The notes under the pieces are model-generated. The model did not search any database. It was not told where the DNA came from and saw nothing but the letters and a program-made list of their open reading frames with translations. Below, one piece after another: positions 25,594-34,476 of a stretch of DNA of 56,022 nucleotides (within the stretch, counting starts at the first letter, position 1; each line of letters starts with the position of its first letter). Source of the DNA: Acidobacteriota bacterium (GTDB lineage: Bacteria > Acidobacteriota > JAAYUB01); the NCBI GenBank assembly GCA_016935015.1, contig JAFGRT010000201.1:1-56022 (forward strand), in the 5' to 3' direction. Both the position numbers and the translations under genes were made by a program.

Positions 25594-25622
25594 TTGCAAA
25601 GCCCTCCATATTTCAGTATGAT
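25594..25622 (+). promoter_or_regulatory. Candidate promoter for the peptide-sensing operon
   Basis: TTGCAA (25594-25599) and TATGAT (25617-25622) are 17 bases apart. Transcription from here would give a leader of about 290 bases before the ATG at 25919. Confidence 0.4.
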
Positions 25623-25629
25623 ACCCAAT

Positions 25630-25918
25630 TCAACGGAGAAATGCGTTCATCACATCTCTTTGACCAATGGTCCAGGACGCGGGATTTGTTGAGGCCTTCT
25701 TTGCGAGCATGGGCGCGCCAGTGATGGCGCCTGTTGCGGACAGTCGTACCCGGCTGTGGCTGCAGGATGGGCGGCTCGTTATGTGAACCGGTTCGATACA
25801 GGCTGAACAGACGACCGGCTCCCCTTGCCAGGAGCTATCTTGAAAGGCAAAGTGAAGCTGAGTGCCTTTGGAGGGGTGTTTACTTTTTCGCTGGAGAGAA
25901 CAGGGTGAGAGGTTCGTT
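25630..25918 (+). other. Long leader of the peptide-sensing operon, with hairpin
   Basis: The 547-base gap 25372-25918 has no convincing gene. Its right half would be the operon leader. A perfect stem AAAGGCA/TGCCTTT (25843-25849 with 25863-25869, 13-base loop) ends about 50 bases before the start codon and is followed by a T-rich stretch, so it could act as an attenuator. A 27-codon frame at 25641-25724 has poor spacing to its purine-rich site and is probably not a gene. Confidence 0.3.
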
Positions 25919-27616
25919 ATGACTCCCGACGGCGTAACGCGCGGCTATCTTCGAAACGTCGGAAGGCGCTGGGTCCTTCCGGCGGCCGGGATTTGTCTCA
26001 CCCTGGTCGTCGTGGCGTGCCATGCGACACGCGACATGGCGCCGGCGGATCGTTCGCCCAAGGCCGGTGGCGTTTTTCGGTACAGTCTGTCCTATCTGCC
26101 GGAAACACTGGATCCTCGAGAATTGTTGTTCAACCAGGACCGGCAGGTGGCTGCCCTGATTTATGAAGGTCTCGTGGGTTTTGGCGAGGATCCGGACGAA
26201 ATCCGACCGTTGCTGGCGGAATCATGGGAAGTCCAGGCGGATGGTTGCAGCTGGATTTTTAACCTGCGTCCGGACGTGTATTTTCAGGATGATCCATGCT
26301 TTCCCGATGGCCAGGGGCGGCAAGTGGTGGCGGCCGATGTGGAATACTCCATTGGGCGCCTGGCCGCGGAAGAAACGGCCTGGAATCTACTGGCCGGCAA
26401 GATTGTCGGATTTGACGAATTCGAGAGGGGTGCCGCAGACCGGATCACCGGCATCACGGTTCTGGGCGAACGAAGACTGCGTTTCGATCTGGTGAGAGCG
26501 GATGCCACATTTTTGAAAATACTGGCTACCGGCGCCGCCTATATCCTTCCATCAGAAGCGATCCGTCATTATGGTGCCGCCTTTCGACAGCATCCGGTCG
26601 GGACCGGGCCGTTCCGAATGGCCCGCTGGCGGCCGCTGCAGGAAATCCTGCTGGTTCGTAACGATCATTACTGGCAGCGGGATACCGCAAACTGTGGCCT
26701 GCCCTACCTGGAGGCCATAGAGATCCGGCAGGCGGCAAATTTTTCCCAGATTTTCTCCGGCTTTCTGAAAGGGGAAAACTACCTGCTCGAGGTGAACGAG
26801 AAATTTTTCCATACCCAGGTTTTGCCTGTTCTGGAAAAGGAAAAATATGATACACTGATTTGCTCCTGCGGCCTTTCATGCCGATTCTTCGGCTTCGCCA
26901 TGGATCTCGATTCCCCGTTCAGCCGGTATGCCGACGTACGACGGGCTGTAGGTCTGGCCTTTGACCGGGCCCGGCTGGCCGATCTTCTGCCGGGAATGTA
27001 TTACCACCCTCCCGCGACCCTGGTCCCCATGTTGCGACCGGACGACCCTGCGGCCGGCAAAACCGACTACGATCCACAACTGGCCGGAGAATTGTTCCGC
27101 CGCCATGTCCGGGAACTTTCGGATTACCGTACTCTGCGGATCGCGTCCAATCTCGAATATCCGAGCCTGGGTGTATTGCGCCAATCCCTGGCGCCGCTTG
27201 GCATTCACCTCGAATTCAGCATTCGTGAAGTGGCATACTACGACTCGCTTACCAGGGATCGTCCGGACCTGTTGCGGGTCAGTTTCGTGCCTTGCCTGCC
27301 TGACCCCACCCAATACTATCTGCTGTTCTATTCCAGGAGCCCAGCCCATATCAACCTCACGGCATATGCCAACCCCCGTTTCGATCTTATTCTGGAAGAA
27401 TCTCTGATTGAGTCGGATCCGGCCCGGCGCCGCGAATTGTTTGAACAGTTGGAGGAGATTCTGAGGCAGGATTGCCCGGTGATACAGATCAGCCATGCCA
27501 ATCCCCGGTATCTCGTCATGCCGTCTTTTGTGCACGGGGTGAAACTCTATTTTGTATATCCGGATTTCACGGAAGTCTGGCTGGAACAGGAGGGCGGGAA
27601 TCATATTCAGCATTAA
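25919..27616 (+). CDS. Lipoprotein peptide-binding protein (SBP_bac_5 family)
   Basis: 565 residues. An N-terminal signal ends in the lipobox VVAC, with the lipidated Cys at about 34, so it is anchored in the envelope. The rest is the family 5 solute-binding fold of peptide/nickel transporters: GGVFRYSLSYLPETLDP near the start, ALIYEGLVGF, a WEVQADGCSWIFNLRPDV strand and HPVGTGPFRMARW. No permease or ATPase genes are nearby. Instead the next two genes encode a sensor kinase and its regulator, and the kinase frame overlaps this gene, so the protein probably works as a periplasmic ligand sensor and not as a transport component. ATG 25919 follows GAGAGG; an upstream in-frame start lacks the clean signal peptide. 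Confidence 0.88.
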   Translation: MTPDGVTRGYLRNVGRRWVLPAAGICLTLVVVACHATRDMAPADRSPKAGGVFRYSLSYLPETLDPRELLFNQDRQVAALIYEGLVGFGEDPDEIRPLLAESWEVQADGCSWIFNLRPDVYFQDDPCFPDGQGRQVVAADVEYSIGRLAAEETAWNLLAGKIVGFDEFERGAADRITGITVLGERRLRFDLVRADATFLKILATGAAYILPSEAIRHYGAAFRQHPVGTGPFRMARWRPLQEILLVRNDHYWQRDTANCGLPYLEAIEIRQAANFSQIFSGFLKGENYLLEVNEKFFHTQVLPVLEKEKYDTLICSCGLSCRFFGFAMDLDSPFSRYADVRRAVGLAFDRARLADLLPGMYYHPPATLVPMLRPDDPAAGKTDYDPQLAGELFRRHVRELSDYRTLRIASNLEYPSLGVLRQSLAPLGIHLEFSIREVAYYDSLTRDRPDLLRVSFVPCLPDPTQYYLLFYSRSPAHINLTAYANPRFDLILEESLIESDPARRRELFEQLEEILRQDCPVIQISHANPRYLVMPSFVHGVKLYFVYPDFTEVWLEQEGGNHIQH

Positions 27617-29429
27617 ACGCAAATTTTTGTTGTTTGTGGCCGGATATACCCTGCTGTTGTGCGGCGGGATTCTCGCTTATTTCCTGAGCGACGGATATCA
27701 TGATATCCGACGGCGGTCTCGTCAGGACATCGCCCATCTCTCTGGAGTATTGGCCCAGTTGCTCCGGAAGGAAGTACAGGATTGCACAGCCGAGCTGACC
27801 GGCTTCCGTACGACACTGGTGCTGACGGCGGCCGATCAGTCGCAGTGGGACGAAGTGTCGGTGCAACTGATTCAGGAATACGTGGGGAGCTACCCTTACA
27901 AATATGCGGCCTTCATGCTGGTCGATCTGGAATCCGACGTCATGGACACATTTCGACCGGTGATGGAACTGGGGGAAATCCAATTGCTGCGGCAGCAGGG
28001 AAACGTTCCCGCCTCGTTGGTGATGCTGAGCCGACGCTTCCGGCCGGCAACAATGGCGGTAACGGATCAGCCGGAACTGGGGCTTGTGACGGATTCGGAC
28101 ACACTCCGCTTTCTCCTGCCGGTGGGTAATGATCACCCGAACAAATACCTGGCTGTAGAAGTTTTTCTCGATTATATCGTGTCACAAAGTGTGGAAAAAC
28201 TGGCATTGCCACCGGAGCATTCCCTCCTTGTGGCCAATGAGCAGGGTGTTATCCTGCTGGCGGATGACATCACGTGGCTGCATCGGCGTCTGGACAGCGT
28301 CTTTCCCGGGCATACCGGGGTGCCGACTACCTGGTCTCCCCGGAAGGGATGGGGAGAGCATGAGGATGCCCTGCTCTATTGGCTGGGGTTGCCGCAACTG
28401 CGCCTTATGGCTGTGATACGTAAGGATCTGGGAACGGAATTGCGACAATGGTGGAACACGGCGCTGGGGATTTCCGTCTTCACTCTCTTCATGGCCGGTC
28501 TTGCCATGGGGACTATCTGGCTTTTATCGGAACGGATCGCCCGTTCGGTGGGACATGTATCCGAGGTAGCCCGGCGGGTGGCGGCCGGCGATTTTACCCA
28601 GAAAATCCAGCTGGACCGCAAGGATGAGCTGGGTGTGCTCATAGAATCCTTCAATCATATGACCGAGAAGTTACAACTTAGTTATCGGGAATTGCAAACC
28701 GTCAACCAGGAATTGGCCGCTAAAATCCAGGAATTGAGCCGCACGCGCAGGAAGCTTTCTCGGAAAGAGCGACTGGCGGTGCTGGGTGAGGCCATCTCCA
28801 AGATATCACATGAAATACAGAACAAGATCGGCGGCGTCAGTGTCTGGGTGCAAAACCTGGAGCGGTATACGGCCGCCGATGAAAAGGCGCAGTTGTACAT
28901 TCATGAACTGAAAGAGGCCCAGGCGGCGTTTCTGGACATGCTGGTCAATTTTAAAAGATTCTACCGTGAACCAGTGCTGCAGAAAGAAAAGGTCCACTGG
29001 CCGGAACTGCTGGACGAGTCGCTCCGTCATCTACGTCTGGAGATCGAATCCAAGGATTTGCGGGTGGTGCGAAACGAAACGGAAGAACTGGTTGACCTGC
29101 AGGCGGACCCGCGACAACTGATGGACGCCATGGTGAACATCCTGCTGAACGCTGTCTATTTTTCCCCGGCCGGGGGGCGGCTCTACCTGCACCTTTGCCG
29201 GCGGGGAAGGTGGACGATTCTGTCGGTAAAGGATGAGGGGCCGGGGATCCCGGCCGGTTCCGCCAAGCGTCTGTTTACGCCGTTTTACAGCACCAAGCCC
29301 AGCGGCAGCGGACTCGGTCTGGCCATTGTGCACAACATTGTTCGGGTGCATGGCGGCCGGATTCGTGCGCGGAACCGGCCCCGCAGCGGCGCCTGCTTCG
29401 AAATCTGGCTGCCCGGAGAAAAATCATGA
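27552..29429 (+). CDS. Membrane sensor histidine kinase (HAMP, coiled coil)
   Basis: Up to 625 residues. An N-terminal membrane helix (KFLLFVAGYTLLLCGGILAY), a periplasmic sensor region of about 250 residues, a second helix (LGISVFTLFMAGLAMGTIWL), a HAMP linker, a coiled coil and the kinase core follow. The H-box ISKISHEIQNKIGG has its His at 420 (counting from 27552). N, G1 and G2 boxes are intact (NILLNAVYF, DEGPGIP, GSGLGLAIV). The start is uncertain: TTG 27552 is the only standard start before the first helix and lies inside the lipoprotein gene, whereas an AGGAGG at 27588-27593 points to initiation near 27600-27605, where only ATC and ATA codons occur. The stop overlaps the regulator start by 4 bases. 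Confidence 0.88.
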   Translation: MYIRISRKSGWNRRAGIIFSIKRKFLLFVAGYTLLLCGGILAYFLSDGYHDIRRRSRQDIAHLSGVLAQLLRKEVQDCTAELTGFRTTLVLTAADQSQWDEVSVQLIQEYVGSYPYKYAAFMLVDLESDVMDTFRPVMELGEIQLLRQQGNVPASLVMLSRRFRPATMAVTDQPELGLVTDSDTLRFLLPVGNDHPNKYLAVEVFLDYIVSQSVEKLALPPEHSLLVANEQGVILLADDITWLHRRLDSVFPGHTGVPTTWSPRKGWGEHEDALLYWLGLPQLRLMAVIRKDLGTELRQWWNTALGISVFTLFMAGLAMGTIWLLSERIARSVGHVSEVARRVAAGDFTQKIQLDRKDELGVLIESFNHMTEKLQLSYRELQTVNQELAAKIQELSRTRRKLSRKERLAVLGEAISKISHEIQNKIGGVSVWVQNLERYTAADEKAQLYIHELKEAQAAFLDMLVNFKRFYREPVLQKEKVHWPELLDESLRHLRLEIESKDLRVVRNETEELVDLQADPRQLMDAMVNILLNAVYFSPAGGRLYLHLCRRGRWTILSVKDEGPGIPAGSAKRLFTPFYSTKPSGSGLGLAIVHNIVRVHGGRIRARNRPRSGACFEIWLPGEKS

Positions 29430-30823
29430 ACATTCTGCTGGTCGATGATGAGGCTTCCATCCGGCGGGGAATCGCCGCCTTCCTGGAGATGGAGGAGCAT
29501 GACGTCACCGAGGCCTCTTCCGGCATGGAGGCGTTACGCTGCTGTCAGTCGGGGCGCTTCGACCTGGTGATCTCCGACGTGCGCATGCCGGAGATGGACG
29601 GGCTGCGCCTGCTGACCAGTCTGCGGGAACAGGGCCTGGATATCCCGGTCATCATCATGACGGCCTACGCCACAGTGGAGGATGCCGTGAAGGCTGTCCG
29701 GCAGGGAGCCGATGATTATCTCACCAAACCTCTGAATCTGGATGAATTGCAGGTGAAGATTCAACGGCTGGAGTGGAAACTGGATCTGGTCCGGGAAAAC
29801 CGGCAGCTGCGTGAACGGCTGGGACAGCTGGAATTTCCCGATATGATTGGGATCAGCAAGGCCATGCGGGACGTCCAGCATGCCATCGCCCGTGTGGCCC
29901 AGGACCCCGATGTATCGGTCATGATCTGCGGCGAGAGCGGAACGGGCAAGGAGTTGGCGGCCCGGGCGGTCCATACCCGCAGTCCCCGGCGGGAAGAGCG
30001 TTTTCTGGCCATCAACTGTGGCGCCTTTTCCGAGGATCTGCTGGCCAGCGAGCTCTTTGGTTACCGTCAAGGAGCGTTTACCGGGGCTGTCCGGGACAAG
30101 GAGGGCATTTTCCGGGCGGCGCATCGGGGAACGCTTTTTCTCGATGAAGTGGGGGAGATGAGCCCGGGTATGCAGACCAAATTGTTGCGGGTCTTACAGG
30201 AACGGTGTGTCCAGCCGGTCGGTGCGACCGATTCCGTGGCGGTGGATGTGCGGATCATCGGCGCATCCAACAAGGATTTGTGGGGGCTGACGCGCACCGG
30301 GGCCTTCCGCGAAGACCTTTACTATCGACTCAATGTAGTGGAAATTCAATTACCCCCCTTGCGCGAACATCCCGAAGACATTCCGATGCTTATCGAGCAT
30401 TACTTGAGGCTGTATGGCGAAAGCCGCCAGACACCGTTGCGTTTCGCCCGGTCAACATACCGGTTTCTGCAATCCTACCCCTGGCCGGGCAATGTCCGCG
30501 AACTGGAGAACATGGTGCGAATGCTCCTGGTGACCTGCGAAGGGGAAACGGTCCGGCTGGAGGACTTGCCCCGCCAGCTGCGGCGAGCCGACATGGAAAG
30601 GATTACGGCGGAGAATGACGATTGGCTGGAGCTCGATTTCCGGACCGCTCAGCAAGGGGTCCTTCGCCGGTTTGAAGCGTATTACCTGCGCCATCATCTG
30701 GAGAAAAACGATGGCAACATCTCCCGGACCGCGGCCCGGATCGGTCTGTCGCGGGTGGCGCTGCACCGCAAACTCCGCGACCTGGACGACGTGGTATCCG
30801 GTGAGGCATCGTCTGCCAAATGA
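29426..30823 (+). CDS. NtrC-family sigma-54-dependent response regulator
   Basis: 465 residues in three parts. The receiver has D51 as phosphorylation site with T79 and K101. The AAA+ domain has Walker A GESGTGKE (169-176) and an intact GAFTGA loop (216-221), the element that touches sigma-54. The C-terminal Fis-type HTH includes NISRTAARIGLSRVALHRKL. Phosphorylated activators of this class bind upstream sites and remodel the sigma-54 holoenzyme with ATP. It overlaps the kinase gene by 4 bases, so the pair is cognate. A sigma-54 promoter and dyads lie within 240 bases downstream, making the next operon its likely target. Confidence 0.95.
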   Translation: MNILLVDDEASIRRGIAAFLEMEEHDVTEASSGMEALRCCQSGRFDLVISDVRMPEMDGLRLLTSLREQGLDIPVIIMTAYATVEDAVKAVRQGADDYLTKPLNLDELQVKIQRLEWKLDLVRENRQLRERLGQLEFPDMIGISKAMRDVQHAIARVAQDPDVSVMICGESGTGKELAARAVHTRSPRREERFLAINCGAFSEDLLASELFGYRQGAFTGAVRDKEGIFRAAHRGTLFLDEVGEMSPGMQTKLLRVLQERCVQPVGATDSVAVDVRIIGASNKDLWGLTRTGAFREDLYYRLNVVEIQLPPLREHPEDIPMLIEHYLRLYGESRQTPLRFARSTYRFLQSYPWPGNVRELENMVRMLLVTCEGETVRLEDLPRQLRRADMERITAENDDWLELDFRTAQQGVLRRFEAYYLRHHLEKNDGNISRTAARIGLSRVALHRKLRDLDDVVSGEASSAK

Positions 30824-30825
30824 AG

Positions 30826-30850
30826 TGTAAATCCAGATTTACAATGTAAA
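30826..30850. promoter_or_regulatory. Overlapping dyads, candidate activator-binding site
   Basis: TGTAAAT-CCAG-ATTTACA (30826-30843) is a perfect dyad with 7-base arms. Its right arm forms a second perfect dyad, TTTACA-A-TGTAAA (30838-30850). So three half-sites of one motif are packed in 25 bases, about 170-190 bases upstream of the sigma-54 promoter. That is the usual distance and style for an NtrC-type enhancer site. A role in ending transcription of the regulator gene is less likely as the stem is A+T rich with no T-run. Confidence 0.5.
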
Positions 30851-30891
30851 GCCCCGGCGACACCCGCACATTCAGTTCACAAACCATTTAT

Positions 30892-30907
30892 TTATAAAAT
30901 TTTATAA
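30892..30907. repeat. 16-base perfect palindrome
   Basis: TTATAAAATTTTATAA reads the same on both strands and lies between the candidate enhancer and the sigma-54 promoter. Being all A/T it may mark a bend site (for example for IHF-like looping) or be chance. Confidence 0.4.
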
Positions 30908-31017
30908 TATTGCTGACGGGGGAGTGTAACCCTCTCTTCATGCGGGCGCTGGGCACCCTTTGTCATTTTGATTTCTTAAACTATTGAAAAGAAAGAATAA
31001 AAAAGAAATTGCCTGCC

Positions 31018-31033
31018 TGGCATAACGTTTGCC
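31018..31033 (+). promoter_or_regulatory. Sigma-54 promoter for the receiver/dockerin operon
   Basis: TGGCATAACGTTTGCC matches the -24/-12 consensus TGGCAC-N5-TTGC with the invariant GG (31019-31020) and GC (31031-31032) exactly 10 bases apart. The predicted transcription start is near 31044, 24 bases before the ATG at 31068, and a GGGAG ribosome site fits between. It directly follows the NtrC-family gene. Confidence 0.65.
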
Positions 31034-31067
31034 ATGGAACGGTCTATCTCAGTGAAGGGAGCCGTTC

Positions 31068-31493
31068 ATGGCCGATGGAAACGACGACAGGACGGGCAGA
31101 GATCCTCGGCCGCGTGTGTTGATAGTGGATGCCGAGGAGAGCCGCCGTCGCGGGATCTGTTTTGCACTGAGCGAAACAGTGCCGGTGATCAGGGATACTG
31201 CCAGCCCCGTCGAGGCCTTGAAATGGTTGAAGGAAGAAGACTTCGATCTGATTCTGACGGATATCCATTTTCCGGTCATGGACGGGATGCAGGCGGTGAC
31301 CCTGTTTCGGTTGACCTGTCCCCGTGCGCACCTGGTGATCCTGACCAGTTTCATGAATTCCACCCTCCGCCAGCGCCTGCAAGAGATGGGCATTCGATCG
31401 ATCACTGAATCCCCTTTCGCCATACAAGAACTCCGTGACGAGATCATGGCCTTGTTCACCGGGCAAAATCACACATCCGAGGAGATCATATGA
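31068..31493 (+). CDS. Receiver-only response regulator with altered Lys site
   Basis: 141 residues consisting of one CheY-like receiver domain (about 15-130). The acidic residue D21 and phospho-acceptor D65 in ILTDIHFP are present, and a Thr follows in VILTSF, but the conserved Lys before the last strand turn is replaced (ITESPF in place of xxKPF). It may be phosphorylated poorly or signal without phosphate. There is no DNA-binding domain. It is first in the operon behind the sigma-54 promoter, and its stop overlaps the start of the dockerin protein gene by 4 bases. A single-domain regulator translationally coupled to an exported protein is odd. Confidence 0.85.
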   Translation: MADGNDDRTGRDPRPRVLIVDAEESRRRGICFALSETVPVIRDTASPVEALKWLKEEDFDLILTDIHFPVMDGMQAVTLFRLTCPRAHLVILTSFMNSTLRQRLQEMGIRSITESPFAIQELRDEIMALFTGQNHTSEEII

Positions 31494-32701
31494 AATCCAG
31501 ACATGTATGCATGATGGTCCTGTTTGTTTCGTCGGTGATCTGGACGTGGGCGGCATCGCCCAATTTGCTGGTCCACCACCATGTCGTGGATGACACCGCG
31601 GCCGGCTGTGATCAGGACGGGATTGCCGATTACGGCGAGGTGGTTCAATTCCTGCTGTACATTGACAACCGTGGCGATGCCGACGCCACCGATGTGTGGG
31701 TGTCCCTCACGGCGGCGGATTGCCTGATCAGCGGCAAGGTGTCGCTGGGGACCATCGCCGCCGGCCAGGTGGCGGTGGAAGTGTGGTTCGATGTGGAAGT
31801 CAGCGACACGGTCCCTTGTCCCGCTGAAGACTGGGAATTCGAGGCCAGCCTGACCTGCCATGAAACGGGCACAACCCTCGAGCCATTCTATGAAACCGTG
31901 AACGCGGACTGGCGTATGTCCATATTTTTCGATGATATGGAATGCGCCGGCGACGGCGGCTGGACGCATTCCGCCGGGGTCGGCAGCGACGATTGGCAGA
32001 AAGTGACCACCTCCGCCCATTCACCGGTGCAGAGCTGGTTCAGTGCCGATTACCCCTCCGCCAAAGACGTCTATCTGGTGACCCCGGCCCTGTCTCTCTA
32101 CGACAGCGCGAAGATGAGTTTCTGGCACAAGCGCAACATGGAAGTTCAGGGGAACGAATGGGCGTACGACGGCTGTGTTCTGGAGATTTCGACAAATGGC
32201 GGGGGGACCTGGACAGACCTGGGCCCGGACGTACTGCAGGGTGGATACAGCCATACGGTGTTCGACTGGGCGGCGACCAATCCGCTGCACGGCCGGCCTG
32301 TATGGAGCGGCAATATGGATTGGACGCTGGTCAAGGTGGACCTCAGTGCCTACGCTCCGGGGGAAGCCCTGCTGCGTTTCCGGCTGGGCTGCGACGAACA
32401 GGAAACCGCCCCGGGGGAGGCCGGTTGGTGGATCGATGATGTCCGGATCGAGGAAGGACGCTACGACTGCCATCATCAGCCGTGCAGTTCCGACTGCACC
32501 TACGGGGATCTCGATTTCGACGGCTCTTGCGATGCCGACGACGTATTGCTGCTGGCCCACTATTTGGCCGGCAATCCGGCTGGATTCACCTGTGACGAGG
32601 CCTTTGGCGATCTGAACCGCAATGGTGGCGTCGATGGACATGACCTGATCATCCTGTTGAACTTCGTCTGTAACAATATCAGCATCATTCCTTTGCCGTA
32701 G
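31490..32701 (+). CDS. Secreted protein with C-terminal dockerin-like repeats
   Basis: 403 residues. A signal peptide ends near TWAAS. An N-terminal CARDB-like beta domain (about 25-140, with IDNRGDADATDVWVSL) is followed by a jelly-roll region of the immune-inhibitor A / MAM-like sort (SFWHKRN, WWIDDVRIE). The last 65 residues carry two calcium-loop repeats of dockerin type (GDLDFDGSCDADD and GDLNRNGGVDGHD). Dockerins classically bind cohesins; none is encoded in this window, and in many bacteria such C-termini occur on unrelated surface proteins. Coupled to the receiver gene and probably under sigma-54 control. The substrate or partner is unknown. Confidence 0.85.
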   Translation: MKSRHVCMMVLFVSSVIWTWAASPNLLVHHHVVDDTAAGCDQDGIADYGEVVQFLLYIDNRGDADATDVWVSLTAADCLISGKVSLGTIAAGQVAVEVWFDVEVSDTVPCPAEDWEFEASLTCHETGTTLEPFYETVNADWRMSIFFDDMECAGDGGWTHSAGVGSDDWQKVTTSAHSPVQSWFSADYPSAKDVYLVTPALSLYDSAKMSFWHKRNMEVQGNEWAYDGCVLEISTNGGGTWTDLGPDVLQGGYSHTVFDWAATNPLHGRPVWSGNMDWTLVKVDLSAYAPGEALLRFRLGCDEQETAPGEAGWWIDDVRIEEGRYDCHHQPCSSDCTYGDLDFDGSCDADDVLLLAHYLAGNPAGFTCDEAFGDLNRNGGVDGHDLIILLNFVCNNISIIPLP

Positions 32702-32823
32702 TTGCCGAAGATTACCGGTCGGCCCTGTATTCGGATCGTCCGGCGGCGATAAGGCCTACCGCCAGGAGCCCGGCTGGCAGAGGAGACTCGACCATACAAT
32801 ATCTCGATTCCAGGAGGTTAATA

Positions 32824-34476
32824 ATGAGAAAGTTATTGTTTCTGTGGATGATGATTGTGCCCTTCATTCTGGGGTCCGGCCTCATGATCCGGGGGGCGAC
32901 CTACCGCTATTTCGGCCCTCATGTGACGGCCCAGGCGCCATGGATCAACTCCATCGTGGTGTACAACAACGGCGACGCGGCCGGTACTTTTAAAATCACC
33001 GTCCACGATGCGGCGGGCGCGGTGGGGCATCAGCAGGAATACGTCGTGCCCGCCACATCATTCCTGGCGCTGGTCATGTCCAATGACGCAGGCTATATAC
33101 CCGGTCCGGCAGAGGTCTCCCTGACCCCCGTCGAAGGGACGTTTGTCATCGACACGGACAATCCGAAAATCAAAACAAAAGTGGCCTTCCGCTATGGCGA
33201 CAGCGTCTCGCTGTGCGAGTTTTTTCTGTCGGACACCCTGGGCTGGGAGTTTATCCTGCCCAACACAGTTCAAGCCCACTTGGCCTGGACCGGCCTGTCC
33301 CTCATGAATCCGTTCGATGGGCCCTTGACGGTGTGGGTCGAAGCATTTCAGGACGGAGTGTTGGTCGGCCAGAGCGAAATCGCCGACATTCCGCCCGGCA
33401 CCAAGTATGTACGGCTTTCTGACGGCTTCTGGCCGGGGCTGGGCTATGACGACTATGATCAGGTGCGGATTTACAGCCTGCAGCAGGCGTTCCCGCCGCC
33501 CATGTCCATCACCGGCAACAATGACCAAGACCGCCATCTTTTTTTCAATGCGGCCGTTACCGCGCTGACCAATCCCTTCACTCCATATGATGCCGGTGAT
33601 TTGTATGCCACCGATTCCATCGTCGGCAACCTGTTCTTCGTGCCGGCCGGTTCCTTTACCCAGGGATCGCCGGCGGACGAGCCCTGCCGTTTCGAAAACG
33701 AGGGCCCTCGCTTCACCCACGTCCTGAGCCGCCATCTGGCGGTTATGGAAACGGAAGTCACCCGGCGGATGTGGGAGGATCTTCGGGCCTGGCAGCCGGA
33801 CCTGCCGGCGGACCCCAGCAATCTGAATACAACGTCCGGCCTGGATGATCCGGTTCAGTATATGCGCTGGCGCGAGGCGCTGCTGTTTGCCAACCTGCTC
33901 TCCAGCCAGCAGGGCCTGTCCCCCTGCTACTATGTGGACAGTGCCATGACCGACGTTCTGACGGTCAATAATTATGTAAACACTGACTATTATTGTGATT
34001 TTGATGCCGACGGTTACCGGCTGCCCACCGAGGGGGAATGGGAATACTTCTGCCGGGCGGGGACCGACACTCCCTTCTGGGTGGAGGAGCCCGATTATGT
34101 GGACGGCACCTGTGCCGTTTGCACGACCGAGACGATGCCCAATCTGGAAAGCGTCGCTGTCTTTTGCGCCAACCGCCCCGATGGGATATCAGGCGGCAGC
34201 ACCGCACCGGCCGGGAGCAAGGCGGCCAATCCCTGGAATCTGAAAGATGTCCACGGGAATGTAAAGGAGTATTGTTGGGACCTTTTCATCGATGCCTATC
34301 CCTCGGGAACGGTCACGGATTACGTGGGTTGGGAAGCCGGTAACACCATCCGGGTCATGCGGGGGGGCAGTTTTGTTCATACGGCCCAAAAAGCCCGATC
34401 GGCGTATCGGGATCGGCGCAATCAGAGCACGCCGGGATTTGATATCGGTTTCCGACTGGTGCGCACGGTGGAGTGA
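32824..34476 (+). CDS. Secreted SUMF1/FGE-sulfatase-domain protein
   Basis: 550 residues with a signal peptide. The N-terminal 230 residues form an unrecognised beta-rich region. Residues about 270-548 are a formylglycine-generating-enzyme-like (SUMF1) domain: FFVPAGSFTQGS, METEVTRRMWE, YRLPTEGEWEYFCRAG, NLKDVHGNVKEYCWD and RGGSFVH...RDRR, ending GFRLVR. In true sulfatase-activating enzymes a Cys pair sits after the RGGS block; here that stretch reads FVHTAQKARSAYR with no Cys, so it is unlikely to make formylglycine. Many such proteins use the fold for binding. A CAGGAGG site lies before the ATG. The gap of 122 bases from the dockerin gene permits one operon. Confidence 0.85.
   Translation: MRKLLFLWMMIVPFILGSGLMIRGATYRYFGPHVTAQAPWINSIVVYNNGDAAGTFKITVHDAAGAVGHQQEYVVPATSFLALVMSNDAGYIPGPAEVSLTPVEGTFVIDTDNPKIKTKVAFRYGDSVSLCEFFLSDTLGWEFILPNTVQAHLAWTGLSLMNPFDGPLTVWVEAFQDGVLVGQSEIADIPPGTKYVRLSDGFWPGLGYDDYDQVRIYSLQQAFPPPMSITGNNDQDRHLFFNAAVTALTNPFTPYDAGDLYATDSIVGNLFFVPAGSFTQGSPADEPCRFENEGPRFTHVLSRHLAVMETEVTRRMWEDLRAWQPDLPADPSNLNTTSGLDDPVQYMRWREALLFANLLSSQQGLSPCYYVDSAMTDVLTVNNYVNTDYYCDFDADGYRLPTEGEWEYFCRAGTDTPFWVEEPDYVDGTCAVCTTETMPNLESVAVFCANRPDGISGGSTAPAGSKAANPWNLKDVHGNVKEYCWDLFIDAYPSGTVTDYVGWEAGNTIRVMRGGSFVHTAQKARSAYRDRRNQSTPGFDIGFRLVRTVE

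Follow-up and report, generated by a model that had tools for sequence, protein, structure and literature searches.

A predicted two-component sigma-54 control unit adjoining a receiver/dockerin/FGE-fold operon in an Acidobacteriota genome

Genes at the locus

In the window (the whole 56,022-nucleotide stretch of Acidobacteriota DNA that was analysed), a gene for a family 5 extracellular solute-binding protein of the oligopeptide-binding type (25862–27616, + strand; Pfam SBP_bac_5, E=1.2e-47), preceded by a sigma-70-like promoter recognised by consensus match only (25594–25622), is followed by a gene for a membrane histidine kinase with HAMP and HATPase_c domains (27552–29429, + strand; identified from Pfam and the ORF list, its start codon being uncertain). 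The kinase gene overlaps by 4 bp that of an NtrC/AtoC-type sigma-54 activator (29426–30823, + strand), in which an N-terminal receiver domain (Pfam Response_reg, 3.8e-33), an AAA+ domain (Sigma54_activat) with a GAFTGA motif and a Fis-type helix-turn-helix (HTH_8) were recognised, as expected of an NtrC-type protein. Walker A (GESGTGKE), Walker B and GAFTGA are all intact; the GAFTGA loop, to which the preliminary description had drawn attention, aligned with that of NtrC1 (1ny5), the best solved relative of the activator. Among NCBIfam models, AtoS and AtoC scored best for the kinase and the activator, but the activator obtained 427.4 bits against a cut-off of 714 for the AtoC equivalog (NF008469) and was likewise below the cut-off of the NtrC model. 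The locus also differs from AtoSC in its target, no acetoacetate genes being present among the operon products. The genome carries about 22 solid AAA+ activators.

Downstream of the activator gene lie three further genes on the + strand. The first encodes a stand-alone receiver-domain protein (31068–31493; Pfam Response_reg, E=5.4e-15) that, on reading its sequence, keeps the phospho-acceptor Asp, with apparent substitutions at the conserved Lys and at the second acidic position. It overlaps by 4 bp the gene for a secreted protein with a choice-of-anchor-J-like region (NCBIfam choice_anch_J) and a C-terminal type I dockerin (31490–32701; Pfam Dockerin_1, E=2.3e-7). The third gene, 122 bp further on and with a GGAGG ahead of its ATG, specifies a secreted protein of the SUMF1/FGE fold (32824–34476; Pfam FGE-sulfatase, E=5.3e-33). 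The signal peptides of the two secreted proteins were judged by eye. No terminator was found between the dockerin and FGE-fold genes, and the gene after the latter is convergent. Since the final GGS...GFRLV segment of the FGE-fold protein contains no Cys, and this is presumably where the catalytic Cys pair of formylglycine enzymes would lie, the protein is probably not itself a formylglycine enzyme but a relative with a binding or structural role. Its solved relatives are TvpA and PvdO, the Treponema variable protein TvpA being the closest. A diversity-generating retroelement, considered in view of the likeness to TvpA, was discarded when no second copy of the 3′-end of the FGE-fold gene was found in the genome. 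Exported, surface-related targets are a general theme of sigma-54 control, and the operon products fit this theme (PMC3162934).

The -24/-12 element and its statistics

A sigma-54 -24/-12 promoter element, TGGCATAACGTTTGCC, is located at 31018–31033 (+ strand), with its GG (31019–31020) and GC (31031–31032) 10 bases apart, a spacing that had been pointed out previously and that the sequence bears out. The element has the TGGCAYR-N4-TTGCW-like form of sigma-54 promoters, apart from the last base of the -12 region, which is a C where an A is usual (of the 22 strict genome matches, 17 end in TTGCA). From the position of GG and GC, the transcript is predicted to start near 31044, upstream of a Shine-Dalgarno sequence (AAGGGAG, 31055–31061, + strand) placed 6 nt before the ATG at 31068.

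TGGCATAACGTTTGCC is the sole exact -24/-12 match within the 56-kb window, and the strict pattern TGGCAY-N5-TTGCH has 22 matches in the 4.75 Mb genome. Twenty-one of these (95%) are intergenic, as against 38 of 253 (15%) for column-permuted control patterns; intergenic position was scored from genes called by a simple codon-based method in ~500 kb of contigs containing all 22 matches, in which coding density was 86%. The permuted patterns provide a conservative estimate of ~12 chance matches per genome; with 15% of them intergenic, at most ~2 of the 21 would be false. A -24/-12 weight matrix served for ranking alone. The preliminary description depended on the genome having an rpoN gene, and one intact copy was found (C218; PF04552, E=1.2e-57). 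In addition, two species of a sister genus, from the same family, carry -24/-12 elements ahead of groES and lpxC, which argues that the consensus is functional, or under selection, in this lineage. Together with the genome-wide statistics, which back it strongly, these data make a convincing case for TGGCATAACGTTTGCC as a genuine sigma-54 promoter element.

Elements of -24/-12 type were also seen ahead of groES, dnaK, grpE, dnaJ and an hsp20 gene in the same genome (L144, L113, L141, L146 and L138), as well as ahead of groES in the two sister-genus species (L173, L178), which suggests a heat-shock regulon under sigma-54 in the lineage. Such a regulon has previously been reported for Bacteroidota and Planctomycetota (PMC12316311). 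The element before lpxC is conserved across two genera of the family (L140 in this genome; L174 and L175).

The activator-to-promoter gap

The preliminary description had placed overlapping dyads made of TGTAAA half-sites at 30826–30850. The half-sites are indeed present: a third TGTAAA occurs at 30845–30850, and TTTACA-A-TGTAAA (30838–30850) forms an overlapping second dyad. The array is nevertheless better read, from its sequence, as a tandem series of TGT-N12-ACA boxes, two or perhaps three in number, with a 19-bp pitch than as overlapping dyads. Box 1, TGTAAATCCAGATTTACA (30826–30843), begins 2 bp downstream of the activator stop codon, agrees in 12 of 12 positions with TGTAAA-N6-TTTACA, and is a perfect 8+2+8 palindrome. 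Box 2, TGTAAAGCCCCGGCGACA (30845–30862), starts one base past box 1, is set 19 bp from it and scores 9/12. A possible decayed box 3, CCGCACATTCAGTTCACA (30864–30881), keeps the same 19-bp register with a score of 6/12. The centres of boxes 1 and 2 lie 183 and 164 bp from the -24 region on its upstream side, distances within the 80–250 bp typical of the tandem dyadic upstream activating sites of NtrC-type proteins.

As to chance, a perfect palindrome with 8-bp arms appeared in 4.8–5.1% of dinucleotide shuffles of the 194-bp gap (two such, in 0.1%), and palindromes below p=0.05 were present in 14% of ordinary same-strand gaps; the box 1 palindrome on its own is therefore borderline. The exact TGTAAA-N6-TTTACA arose in none of 20,000 shuffles, for a consensus that was picked after the site had been seen. 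A second box of at least 9/12 within 12 bp was obtained in 1.5% of shuffles, and a third at 6/12 in the 19-bp register had an 11% chance, which no more than suggests a real third site.

The class of repeat was informative as well. In 11 activator-to-promoter gaps chosen for having a promoter (seven in this genome and four in relatives), eight TGT-N11/12-ACA boxes were found against ~0.5 expected from shuffles, the class having been sought only once the box in the window was known; two of the eight belong to the window, leaving six without it, and two more come from the congeners L006 and L007 and are not independent. In these gaps no repeats occurred at N6–10 or N14–16, and one occurred at N13; five of them (C113, C153, C78, C49 and L009) were without a TGT-N11/12-ACA box. 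The N12 form has a frequency of 0.24 per kb in ordinary intergenic sequence of the genome. TGT/ACA repeats with 10–12 bp spacers are used by 15 groups of enhancer-binding activators in Clostridiales (PMC6615313).

Box 1 occurs once in the 4.75 Mb genome. The scan for further copies that had been proposed along with the original observation yielded none with 0 mismatches and four with one, which is the control rate. Box 1 is thus not a regulon-wide operator, a genome-wide regulon of the dyad being rejected, and its being the sole exact copy points to a local, single-target activator. One of the one-mismatch sites (C59:13200) was dropped as it overlaps a TTGACA...TATATT sigma-70-like promoter.

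The arms of box 1 are identical to the TyrR consensus, TGTAAA-N6-TTTACA, and share its G-N14-C spacing. Weak TyrR boxes depend on an adjacent strong one (PMC4374768); the window likewise pairs a strong box with a weaker one, box 2, at 9/12, being 'weak' by the TyrR definition. The tandem arrangement also resembles the set of three tandem 18-bp sites, of TyrR-box form, to which GcsR binds (PMC4894688). TyrR and GcsR are activators of the same AAA+ superfamily as that of the window, which differs from the TyrR family in having a phospho-receiver and HTH_8 and in lacking both HTH_50 and a TyrR-type N-terminal sensor region. Its recognition helix is not TyrR-like, and no TyrR-type box was found near its ten best HTH-region relatives (34–53% identical), and these data do not account for the half-site specificity.

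This bears on the possibility that the -24/-12 element is real and driven mainly by another of the ~22 activators, the boxes serving a different regulator such as a TyrR-like protein or a repressor. The number of solid activators, the combination of a TyrR consensus box with an HTH_8 activator, and a TyrR-type HTH_50 match just above the cut-off in the activator of contig C78 would favour it. However, box 1 abuts the window's own activator gene and, being unique in the genome, is unlike a regulon site, while C78 has, for its activator, a separate promoter and different palindromes. We consider this explanation unlikely.

Between the boxes and the promoter, the stretch at 30882–31017 is A/T-rich (36% GC) and includes a perfect 16-bp A/T palindrome, TTATAAAATTTTATAA (30892–30907), overlapping a TATAAT at 30903–30908. 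The idea that the palindrome assists looping was not supported: no IHF-like site was found in the stretch, and the palindrome, with a TATAAT within it, may be a DNA bend or a weak sigma-70 -10 region. The perfect TATAAT, and the failure to find a terminator between activator and operon, would allow the operon to be transcribed from a sigma-70 promoter at the palindrome or through transcripts continuing from the activator operon, with the -24/-12 element as a coincidence. This is very unlikely, as no sigma-70 pair passed the promoter scan, strict -24/-12 matches are 95% intergenic, and the geometry from the predicted start to the Shine-Dalgarno sequence fits. That the dyad, located 2 bp past the stop codon, is a terminator or an mRNA-end hairpin of the activator operon is hardly credible, since just 7–8 weak A/T-rich pairs would form with no U-run after them, and neither a terminator nor an Rfam RNA element was matched there.

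Recurrence of the layout and proposed mechanism

The succession of an activator gene and a -24/-12 element was observed at six other loci of the genome (C115, C217, C113, C153, C78 and C49), giving the layout a base rate of ~7 in 22 solid activators. The targets include pilin genes (C115, pilR-pilA), a glycyl radical enzyme (C217), an OsmC-like protein (C153) and a secreted Gly-rich protein (C78); clear TGT-N11/12-ACA dyads were present at C115 and C217 among the six. Loci L006 and L007, from two species of one genus, contain an activator 44% identical to that of the window, and the gap aligns at 91%. Here a TGTAG-N7-CTACA dyad lies 189 bp upstream of a conserved -24/-12 element; its arms, a second dyad (GTAGG-N5-CCTAC) and the GG and GC are all unchanged, while the spacers of the first dyad and of GG/GC contain variable bases. 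On this alignment, the conservation is a footprint of the same layout and not of the window's locus. With the kinase as query, no orthologous locus was found in 297 genomes of the same phylum or in the GTDB contig collection, and the exact unit of the window is therefore without phylogenetic support; the conservation in relatives that the preliminary description had asked for was seen at analogous loci only.

The array at L006/L007 (2836–3110) precedes a gene whose product has an N-terminal half rich in Cys and a region resembling the GcvH/lipoyl type. TGTGAAC-N4-GTTCACA boxes near the same-family homologues L008 and L011 were set aside because their positions coincide with a TetR-like gene's promoter.

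Taken together, these results are consistent with a local two-component sigma-54 unit in which the kinase acts through the activator, on the boxes and TGGCATAACGTTTGCC, to control the receiver/dockerin/FGE-fold operon; we assign this reading a probability of about 80%. The peptide-binding-type protein encoded just upstream would perhaps inform the histidine kinase, which would phosphorylate the activator. From the position, uniqueness and class of the boxes, activator dimers are predicted to occupy the tandem TGT-N12-ACA sites at 30826–30862, perhaps to 30881, and to assemble there into an AAA+ ring. A DNA loop over 155–192 bp would then bring the ring to sigma-54 RNA polymerase at TGGCATAACGTTTGCC, where it would open the closed complex and allow transcription of the operon (31068–34476). 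The operon may be the only strong target of the activator. The proposal, made in the preliminary description, of a complete enhancer-promoter unit by which the activator controls the operon was thus largely upheld by rpoN, the -24/-12 statistics, the activator motifs and the recurring layout, with binding to the boxes as its presumptive step. A closed single-target cassette, in which the peptide-binding protein feeds the kinase, the activator acts only at the adjacent tandem TyrR-type boxes, the degenerate receiver feeds back on the kinase, and the dockerin and FGE-fold proteins are exported, is a doubtful extension of this scheme.

The unit shares with PilS-PilR-pilA, and with co-localised pairs of Desulfovibrio (PMC4641369) and Clostridiales (PMC6615313), genes for a kinase and an NtrC-type activator, upstream repeats, a -24/-12 element and an adjacent target operon. 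Co-localisation of activator genes with the sigma-54 promoters that they control is frequent in Desulfovibrio (PMC4641369), and in Clostridiales 65% of the activators act on a single operon, in most cases a co-localised one (PMC6615313). The window differs in its target, a receiver/dockerin/FGE-fold operon of which we met no published description, and in an activator that scores too low for both the AtoC and the NtrC model. The unit is ordinary, though well built, for a bacterial control system, and the general picture of sigma-54 control is unchanged. It does yield a testable regulator-target pairing in a lineage represented here by a fragmented assembly with ~22 sigma-54 activators, and TGT-N11/12-ACA boxes in the gap that separates an activator gene from the -24/-12 element after it can help to pair orphan activators with their targets.

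Related arrangements were noticed at other loci. At L117 (7733–8933), downstream of a PilR-type activator, a TGTC-N10-GACA dyad and a -24/-12 element are followed by a tandem pair of near-identical pilin genes. At L125 (3648–6906), a large histidine kinase gene is succeeded by a -24/-12-like element and then by a stand-alone receiver gene, an order that resembles the target layout of the window. Finally, TGTAGATATATATCTACA was found near the ends of several contigs (C100, C129, C140, C209 and C226 of G000), and probably represents the terminus of a repeat at which the assembly was interrupted.
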